Assembly (NCBI GenBank): GCA_005791575.1
Contig: SXWA01000266.1
Span: 1-49,661 of the forward strand
DNA from: Planctomycetaceae bacterium
Lineage (GTDB): Bacteria; Planctomycetota; Planctomycetia; Pirellulales; UBA1268
Length of the DNA stretch: 49,661 bases
Direction: 5' to 3'
The notes beneath the pieces were generated by a model, which saw nothing but the letters and a program-made list of their open reading frames with translations, ran no database searches and was not told the origin of the DNA. Positions 8,827 through 40,316 of this stretch are shown one piece after another. Each line of letters begins with the position of its first letter. Position 1 is the stretch's first letter. Position numbers and translations under genes: made by a program.

Positions 8827-9722
8827 CGCAGCCCCACGCTCACGGCACCGAACCCTCTGCTGACCGGTCGGCGGGGCGCCGCCGGCTGGTGGTCGGATGC
8901 GGGTACCTCGGTCGCCGTGTCGCCGCGGCCTGGCGCGCTGGTGGCGACGCGGTCTGGGCCATCACCCGGTCACCGCAGCGGGCCACGGTTCTCGCCGCCG
9001 CCGGCCTCGAGCCGCTGGTCATCGACCTGACCGGCCCCTATCCGCTCGCTCCCCTCCCCGCTGTCGATACCGTGCTCTGGTCGGTGAGCCCCGATCCGGC
9101 CACCGGCACCGGCCACCACGCCCTCCACGTGGTCGGCATGGGAGCGTTGCTCGACGCCCTGCCGGGCACGCCGCGGATCCTGTTCACGAGTTCCACCGGA
9201 GTCTACGGCGAGGCAGCCGGCGGCATCGTCACCGAAGCCACGCCACCACGGCCCGACCGCCCGGCCGGCGTCGCCATCCTCGAGGCGGAGGAGAACCTCG
9301 CGGCGCGCTGCCCGGATCGATCGGTCGTGCTGCGGCTGGCGGGGCTCTACGGCCCCGGAAGACTCCCCCGCCTCGACGACCTCCGCGCAGGGCGTCCACT
9401 CGCCGGTGATCCCGACACCTGGCTCAATCTGATCCATGCCGACGACGCGACGGCGGTCGTCACTGCCGTGGCTGACCACCCCGCCCCGGGACCGCTGTAC
9501 GTGGTCAGCGACGGGCAACCGGTCCGCCGCCGCGAGTGGTATGCGGCGCTGGCACGGCTGGTCGGTGCCCCCTCCCCGTCGTGGGACACGACCACGCAGC
9601 GTCCGCGGGGCGGCGACAAACGCGTCGATCCCGCGAAGCTGTTCCGCGAGATCGCCCCGGTGCTGCGCTTTCCCGATCCCTATCAGGCTCTGGACAAACA
9701 GCCTGCCGCACCTCAGGGATGA
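8823..9722 (+). CDS. NAD(P)-dependent epimerase/dehydratase family protein
   Basis: GCGYLGRRVAAAWRAGG nucleotide-binding motif, FTSSTGVYGEAAGG, LIHADDAT. The C-terminal ~13 codons lie inside a repeat element. Confidence 0.85.
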   Translation: MTQPHAHGTEPSADRSAGRRRLVVGCGYLGRRVAAAWRAGGDAVWAITRSPQRATVLAAAGLEPLVIDLTGPYPLAPLPAVDTVLWSVSPDPATGTGHHALHVVGMGALLDALPGTPRILFTSSTGVYGEAAGGIVTEATPPRPDRPAGVAILEAEENLAARCPDRSVVLRLAGLYGPGRLPRLDDLRAGRPLAGDPDTWLNLIHADDATAVVTAVADHPAPGPLYVVSDGQPVRRREWYAALARLVGAPSPSWDTTTQRPRGGDKRVDPAKLFREIAPVLRFPDPYQALDKQPAAPQG

Positions 9723-9762
9723 GGTGCCGGGAGTGCAACTCCCGTGAAAAGCGCAGCTTTTC
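9684..9762 (+). repeat. Four-hairpin dispersed element, copy 1
   Basis: CAGGCTCTG-GACA-AACAGCCTG (imperfect); GCACCTCA-GGGA-TGAGGTGC; CGGGAGT-GCA-ACTCCCG; GAAAAGC-GCA-GCTTTTC. Near-identical to 40238..40316. Confidence 0.95.
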
Positions 9763-9835
9763 GAGTGGCCAAAGGCCATGGATGGACCTTGGCCACGGGC
9801 TGCTATGCCGGCCTGGAGGATGCCTGCCGGCCGCC

Positions 9836-9892
9836 CCCGTGAGCCAGGTACCCGTGAGCCAGGTACCCGTGAGCCAGGTACCCGTGAGCCAG
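9836..9892 (+). repeat. 15-bp tandem repeat x3.8 (CCCGTGAGCCAGGTA)
   Basis: Read directly; perfect copies. Confidence 0.97.
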
Positions 9893-22486: not shown

Positions 22487-22574
22487 GTTTCCTGACCGAC
22501 TGCGCTGGGTTTCCTGACCGACTGCGCTGGGTTTCCTGACCGACTGCGCTGGGTTTCCTGACCGACTGCACGGT
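22487..22574 (+). repeat. 22-bp tandem repeat x4 (GTTTCCTGACCGACTGCGCTGG)
   Basis: Three perfect copies plus one degenerate copy, read directly. Confidence 0.97.
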
Positions 22575-39121: not shown

Positions 39122-40237
39122 ATGGATACTCTGCGGTCTTCAAGTCGTCTGGTCGCCCGGTCGTTCACCGGGATCGTGCCTCTGTTCCGCTCCGCGGTGA
39201 CCGACTCGCGCTCCGGAGCAGCCGCGCTCGTCCTCTGGACGGCGATCGCCGGCGGTGGCCGCGCACAACCGCCTGCCCCACCGACCACCGCGGCCCAGCC
39301 GCCCCGACCGCCGGTGGCCGTGCCCGCCGCGGAGTCGATGGAGCTGCAGACCTCCGACGGAGTCCAGTTGACCGTCTGGTTCTACCGCTGCCCGCAGGAC
39401 GACCCCGGTCGTGCCGGCGCCGCCCCGGCCGGTCCCCCCCGGCTTCGTTCCGCCACCAAGACCACGGTGATCCTCCTCCACGATCTCGGCGGCTCGCACA
39501 AGTCCGTCGAACCGCTGGCCCTCGGTCTGCAGCGGAGCGGATGCCACGTGCTCGTGCCCGATCTGCGTGGCCACGGCGCGAGCACGACACGCGTCGATGC
39601 CGCCGGCCGGAGTGACGAGATCGATGCCAAACTGTTCAAACGCGCCGACCTGGAAGCGATCGCCGCCTCGGCGGGGGGTACAGTCCGTGATCAAGGCACG
39701 GCGCGCGGCGACATCGAGGCGATCCGTGCATTCCTCCATGGAAATACCGAGGCGGGCGGTCCAGGACTGGGCCGGTTGGTGGTGGCCGGAGTCGGGACCG
39801 GCGCGACCCTCGCCGCACTGTGGACGGCCGCCGATGCCTCATGGCCACCGATCGCCACCGGGCCCCAGGGTCGCCAGGTCCAAGCGCTGGTCCTCGTCAG
39901 CCCGGCATGGACGCCGCGCGGCCTGCAGATCCTGCCCGCCTTGGGTCAGGAAGTCGTGAAACGCGATCTGCCCATCCTCGTGGTCGCCGGTCGTGGTGAT
40001 CGCGAGGCGATCCGCGTGTTCGATCAACTCAAACGGAACCGCCCGCAGGAGTGGTTCGAACAACGGGCCGGGCAGAAACCGACGCAGGCTCCGAAGCTGG
40101 AGAAGGCCGCCGACGCGACGGCCGTGCTGCTCCAGCTCGACACCGAGGATTCGGGCGAGAAGTTGCTCGCGGGCCGGACGAATCCGACGGAGATGGTCCG
40201 CGGCGTCCTCGGCGCCGTGCTCCCCACTGAACGCTAG
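39122..40237 (+). CDS. Alpha/beta hydrolase-fold protein (secreted)
   Basis: VILLHDLGGSHKSVEPLALGLQRSGCHVLVPDLRGHGAS; VVAGVGTGATLA; ILVVAGRGD. Confidence 0.8.
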   Translation: MDTLRSSSRLVARSFTGIVPLFRSAVTDSRSGAAALVLWTAIAGGGRAQPPAPPTTAAQPPRPPVAVPAAESMELQTSDGVQLTVWFYRCPQDDPGRAGAAPAGPPRLRSATKTTVILLHDLGGSHKSVEPLALGLQRSGCHVLVPDLRGHGASTTRVDAAGRSDEIDAKLFKRADLEAIAASAGGTVRDQGTARGDIEAIRAFLHGNTEAGGPGLGRLVVAGVGTGATLAALWTAADASWPPIATGPQGRQVQALVLVSPAWTPRGLQILPALGQEVVKRDLPILVVAGRGDREAIRVFDQLKRNRPQEWFEQRAGQKPTQAPKLEKAADATAVLLQLDTEDSGEKLLAGRTNPTEMVRGVLGAVLPTER

Positions 40238-40316
40238 CAGGCTGTGGACACACAGCCTGCTGCACCTCAGGGATGAGGTGCCGGGAGCGCAGCTCCCGTG
40301 AAACGCGCAGCGTTTC
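40238..40316 (+). repeat. Four-hairpin dispersed element, copy 2
   Basis: CAGGCTGTG-GACA-CACAGCCTG; GCACCTCA-GGGA-TGAGGTGC; CGGGAGC-GCA-GCTCCCG; GAAACGC-GCA-GCGTTTC. Confidence 0.97.

Follow-up and report, generated by a model that had tools for sequence, protein, structure and literature searches.

We have recognised, in the genome of a planctomycete and in its relatives, a family of short, dispersed, hairpin-rich repeats that is best read, with a probability of roughly 0.6, as an IS1182-mobilised MITE carrying paired CsrA-type hairpins. The family consensus is a 119-bp non-coding element of five hairpins, bordered on each side by 4 bp. From its sequence, it is very probably an IS1182-type MITE, with a 4-bp target duplication and IS1182-like ends. 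The paired CsrA-type hairpins are favoured by the match of two hairpin loops to the A-N-GGA-X consensus, by the distance that separates them, and by the presence of CsrA in all genomes checked.

The window, the whole 49,661-nucleotide stretch of DNA that was analysed, holds two copies, both on the + strand. The complete copy occupies 9680-9806, its 119-bp element (9684-9802) lying between a left (9680-9683) and a right (9803-9806) CTAT target duplication. The left terminal inverted repeat (9684-9693) reads CAGGCTCTGG at this locus, where the family form is CAGGCTGTGG; the right one (9793-9802) reads CCACGGGCTG, as does the right end of the family consensus, and its reverse complement CAGCCCGTGG recurs in an IS1182-like element of a congener (L185). 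These 10-bp repeats are imperfect, the family form CAGGCTGTGG and CAGCCCGTGG being identical at 8/10 positions. Hairpins 2 (9708-9727) and 5 (9765-9796) carry the loops AGGGAT (9715-9720) and ATGGAT (9778-9783), both of the CsrA-type form A-N-GGA-X. Between them, hairpin 3 (9728-9744) has a T(GCA)A loop, a compensatory change relative to the other window copy, and hairpin 4 (9746-9762) has the triloop C(GCA)G. Tandem repeats were also seen in the window: a 15-bp unit (CCCGTGAGCCAGGTA) stands four times in a row at 9836-9892, immediately downstream of the complete copy, and a 22-bp unit (GTTTCCTGACCGACTGCGCTGG) is repeated at 22487-22569, directly past a gene end.

The other copy (40234-40316) is truncated on its 3' side, retaining the left end and hairpins 1-4 without hairpin 5 and the right end. 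It begins with the border CTAG (40234-40237), which includes the TAG stop of a hydrolase ORF, and continues with hairpin 1 (40238-40259; the left terminal repeat CAGGCTGTGG and its inverted copy), hairpin 2 (40262-40281; loop AGGGAT at 40269-40274, again A-N-GGA-X) and hairpins 3 (40282-40298) and 4 (40300-40316), each with a C(GCA)G triloop. An initial annotation had described 40238-40316 as four consecutive hairpins, and their arms and loops are as it gave them; the minimum free energy of this segment is -56.7 kcal/mol (z = -6.95 against dinucleotide shuffles). Its count of seven differences between two 79-bp copies, two compensatory pairs among them, also stands. The second copy that it reported does exist, but runs from 9680 to 9806, not from 9684 to 9762. 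The 79-bp unit itself was mistaken: the consensus is 4 + 119 + 4 bp with hairpin 5, of which the copy at 40234-40316 is a truncated form. The annotation had overlooked hairpin 5 as well as the target duplication and GGA loops.

The gene ends around the truncated copy are as first noted, the hydrolase TAG stop extending to 40237 and the convergent ORF to 40323. The exact filling of a convergent gap is, however, no property of the family. Copies sit in all gap types; among 60 sampled copies with genes on both sides, as called with a home-made gene caller, 38 lie in co-directional, 13 in divergent and 9 in convergent gaps, and in 12 of the 60 a stop codon falls exactly within the 4-bp target duplication. 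The element abuts the hydrolase stop because the TAG of this gene is part of the duplicated CTAG. As CTAG, TTAG, CTGA and TTAA are all targets with stop codons inside, insertion at a gene end would regenerate the stop and thus be tolerated. The co-directional copies show no sense bias (14 sense, 24 antisense). The truncated copy is missing from the equivalent gene gap in three congeners, where the flanks are too diverged for the gap to be aligned and a precise empty site to be shown.

The source MAG (3.84 Mb in 274 contigs, 74.5% complete) contains at least 150 copies found by a covariance model (R1), all with E < 1e-19. A 22-bp family pattern, with at most three mismatches allowed, has 192 matches there versus 0 for the reversed control pattern, and chance is therefore excluded; we put the total at about 190 copies. 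Each of three congeners carries at least 40 copies, and the element model matches 31 of 60 relatives, across 13 of the 35 sampled genera; one genome from another family (G039) also matches. Named records matched by a congener's element are the planctomycete MAGs WB4_3_0930 and REEB424. The additional copies on which the initial annotation had made its proposal depend thus exist, forming a family whose differences do not break the pairing.

Copies also form tandem arrays, seen for instance in C248, C129 and C120, with a period of 123 bp (119 bp plus a single 4-bp border), and a target at each border would allow copies to stack in this way. Many contigs of the source MAG terminate within such arrays (among them C42, C43, C57, C75, C129, C251 and C260), so that the element is a likely cause of assembly breaks. 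A second MITE subfamily was seen in two congeners (L238-L254 in G001 and G002), with identical ends, a different interior dominated by a long central hairpin, and the GGCCANGGAGGGC apex kept. On one source contig (C73; L160, 1560-1690) there is a distinct tandem end in which CTACTGGCAGGCCGTGG is repeated, perhaps a composite or an unrelated repeat.

The borders of 32 of 66 isolated copies are identical. Matches of borders other than CTAG number 27, versus an expectation of 3.0 from shuffling and a maximum of 10 over 10,000 shuffles, and border agreement exceeds expectation at offsets 0-3 only. The borders are a 4-bp target duplication with a preference for YTAG/CTRR (YTAR-like) sites. A DDE_Tnp_1 search of the congeners led to an IS1182-like transposase gene (L185, in G003) that ends beside CTAG followed by CAGCCCGTGGCCCAAG, the right end of the MITE; this insertion sequence is cut by a contig end and a single end is visible. 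The best NCBIfam match of the transposase is IS1182 (E = 1.2e-33; 116.7 bits, below the 270-bit cut-off, for a contig-truncated 341-aa protein), and its DDE_Tnp_1 score exceeds the cut-off of that model. Other DDE_Tnp_1 loci of this congener (L181, L183 and L186) were considered as partners and rejected, being without shared ends. Of 118 relatives, 32 carry related insertion sequences, whose left ends resemble CTAG followed by CAGGCYGTGGATAAAG and whose right ends resemble CTAG followed by CAGCCCGTGGCCCAAG; the complete ones L199 and L205 have CTAG on both borders. A 4-bp duplication is also made by ISPse1, a published IS1182 element (PMC3281130). No IS1182-type transposase was found in the fragmented, 74.5%-complete source MAG, nor in the 97%-complete congener G002. 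The most likely mover of the MITE is an IS1182-family DDE transposase acting in trans, and the element would insert at YTAR-like 4-bp targets, which are duplicated in the process.

Pairing has been maintained while the hairpin arms changed. Across 34 aligned copies, every covariation measure lies above all slid controls and above each of 500 shuffles. Of the double changes seen among 97 copies, 55 restore a pair and a single one fails to, where independent changes would give 11.7 doubles; shared ancestry of copies inflates such counts. Between genera, the arms of hairpins 2-5 change almost wholly and pairing stays at 91-96%, with covariation above all 500 shuffles; conservation of hairpin 1 is mainly confined to the source genus. 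The pairing-preserving changes first noticed between the two window copies are therefore borne out both within the genome and across genera, as are the C(GNA)G triloops of hairpins 3 and 4, which other genera also have, the middle base being free. In hairpin 5 a mismatch or bulge beneath the apex is kept across genera. Rfam yielded no match at the gathering threshold, and chance-level matches only at E up to 10. Complementarity of the arms could also result from template switching in quasi-palindromes, so that arm covariation alone is no proof of selection. Template switching spares loops, however, and the loops thus provide the clearest signal.

The loops of hairpins 2 and 5 have the form C[A-N-GGA-X]G, with A-N-GGA-X intact in 93 of 95 copies for hairpin 2, in 89 of 95 for hairpin 5 and in 87 of 95 for both. 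The N positions of the two loops are the most variable of the whole element (55% and 63% across the 95 copies). GGA is its least variable part, with 0.7% variant cells (4/570, versus 250/8360 in stems and 42/1900 in terminal repeats), cells that share ancestry, so that p-values are only indicative. A36 varies in 1 of 95 copies and X41 in 9. In other genera and one other family, an A(N)GGA hairpin loop is present on the + strand in 46 of 57 elements, 19 of which have two; the corresponding figures are 3 of 57 for the reverse strand and 12% for base shuffles. Subfamily g7, with a different interior, carries C[AGGAT]G plus C[ATGGAT]G, a subfamily in G001 has the GGCCANGGAGGGC apex, and hairpin 2 in G039, from the second family, reads C[AGGAX]G with X being C, A or G. 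GGA is lost from hairpin 2 in genera g5 and g8, and from hairpin 5 in G039.

GGA loops were also observed in other repeats. A 69-bp tandem unit (L260, 1473-1655, in G011; also L085) has alternating GCAGGCAGGATGCCTGC and AAAGGCCATGGATGGCTTT hairpins, both with GGA loops, and its ends are unlike those of the IS1182-type MITE. At L080 (1560-1660) and L081 (350-450), three successive hairpins, all with GGA in the loop and identical between two genera, lie antisense within an ORF that presumably resembles the C-terminal part of an IS91-type transposase.

Alternatively, the element may be an ordinary IS1182-type MITE, with hairpins kept by replication or by DNA-level structure and not by RNA-protein binding. 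Template switching would then keep the arms complementary, and compact GNA-like DNA loops would ease cruciform or single-strand folding. For many double changes, such as that from TC..GA to GG..CC in hairpin 2, no intermediates are seen, which suits such a process, as does the absence of orientation bias. The C(GNA)G kept in hairpins 3 and 4 belongs to a class of very stable DNA mini-hairpins, and GGA is itself a GNA triplet. Yet intermediates do occur at other pairs (16 mismatched copies at 71-79 and 13 at 55-59), and correction of arms should erase the sub-apical mismatch or bulge that hairpin 5 has kept across genera. Correction also spares loops, whereas it is within the loops that GGA is least and N most variable. 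Pairing alone predicts no contrast between a fixed A and a variable X, and the A(N)GGA loop shows strand specificity (46 versus 3). We consider an ordinary MITE a rather unlikely explanation, though one of some weight.

There are two further explanations. At transcript ends the hairpins could act as a bidirectional terminator or as a BIME-like stabiliser of mRNA 3' ends, which would suit the strong folding energy and the several copies that begin at stop codons. The stop-codon fit follows from the target site, however, and 13 copies lie in divergent gaps. Neither window copy has a U-tract terminator, so that the bidirectional termination raised in the initial annotation lacks sequence support, and the loop signature would be left unexplained; a transcript-end role therefore seems improbable. 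A terminator-driven preference for convergent gaps was likewise rejected, given copies in all gap types and no orientation bias. The same annotation had envisaged a REP/REPIN-type element that a RAYT (TnpA_REP) tyrosine transposase would recognise and move in single-stranded form. Hairpins, high copy number and gene-end positions do recall such elements, which are likewise dispersed palindromes near gene ends, with a four-letter tag at the hairpin foot, and GTAG-tagged REPs have been reported in planctomycetes (PMC3733652). But Y1_Tnp (PF01797) was not found in the source or in three congeners (G000-G003, with 97%- and 92%-complete congeners among them), and without a Y1/RAYT gene in these four genomes the proposal fails. 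The exact 4-bp target duplication also argues against it, as Y1 elements make none, as do the terminal repeats in common with a DDE insertion sequence and a unit of 119 bp, versus 20-40 bp for a REP. We regard mobilisation by a RAYT as extremely unlikely.

For the IS1182-type MITE with paired CsrA-type hairpins, CsrA recognition is probably the reason for loop conservation, judging from the sequence of the loops. The high-affinity site of CsrA/RsmE consists of A-N-GGA-X borne on a stem, with both N and X variable and looped out; N may also be absent, at lower affinity (PMC4005645). Sites of this type usually work in pairs (PMC4333381), and one CsrA dimer bridges sites 10-63 nt apart (PMC7652899). 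The GGA motifs of hairpins 2 and 5 are 60 nt apart, inside this bridgeable range. A CsrA gene is present in 60 of 60 genomes checked, with three copies in the source, and the RNA-contact residues L4, R6 and R44 are kept. Several observations count against CsrA recognition: no promoter-like site was found for the element, there is no orientation bias, and one site is lost in some genera. Compared with the short stems of strong SELEX CsrA hairpins (PMC7652899), the 8-bp stem of hairpin 2 is long. The consensus match was recognised after the loops had been seen, making the hypothesis post hoc; partly independent tests of it come from the reverse-strand control and from the contrast between N and GGA in other genera.

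Known systems resemble the element in part. The CsrA/RsmA-sequestering sRNAs CsrB and RsmX/Y/Z and the candidates TwoAYGGAY and Bacillaceae-1 (PMC4333381) also have several hairpins with paired A(N)GGA loops, and some MITE subfamilies share the loop C[AGGAX]G with the CsrB repeat. Those RNAs are products of single-locus sRNA genes, whereas the MITE is dispersed and mobile, with no promoter found and no Rfam family match. The bacterial MITEs ERIC, NEMIS/Correia, RUP, Bcr1 and YPAL, which have internal structure, are likewise short non-coding repeats with terminal inverted repeats and short target duplications, present in hundreds of copies, folding at the RNA level and mobilised in trans. Most descriptions of them are of a single long palindrome with TA duplications, in contrast to the five separate hairpins, 4-bp YTAR duplication, IS1182-like ends and paired A-N-GGA-X loops of the planctomycete element. 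Insertion sequences of the IS1182 family, such as ISPse1 (PMC3281130), match it in their ends, CTAG-like target and 4-bp duplication; unlike them, the MITE lacks a transposase gene, and the insertion-sequence ends seen do not include its internal hairpins. It differs from REP/REPIN elements in its longer unit, in its true target duplication and DDE-type terminal repeats, and in lacking a RAYT. No earlier description of IS1182 MITEs, or of CsrA together with MITEs, was found in the open-licence literature.

Read-through transcription of the + strand would give a five-hairpin RNA, which could bind CsrA through hairpins 2 and 5 and, once bound, act as a dispersed decoy or as a CsrA site in a 3'-UTR or leader. 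That these MITEs have kept paired CsrA-type hairpins despite turnover elsewhere, and that hundreds of copies titrate CsrA or rewire genes, is conceivable but doubtful, and an actual titration effect, with the copies serving as a cellular sponge, is speculative. If CsrA does bind, the sites of a global post-transcriptional regulator would have been copied around the genome by a transposon, and the element would be a candidate CsrA-sequestering RNA in a phylum for which we found none described in the open-licence literature. Even without CsrA, the family represents a large, well-dated case of compensatory evolution of hairpin arms in a MITE. The element makes it possible to test whether regulatory RNA is carried by selfish repeats.
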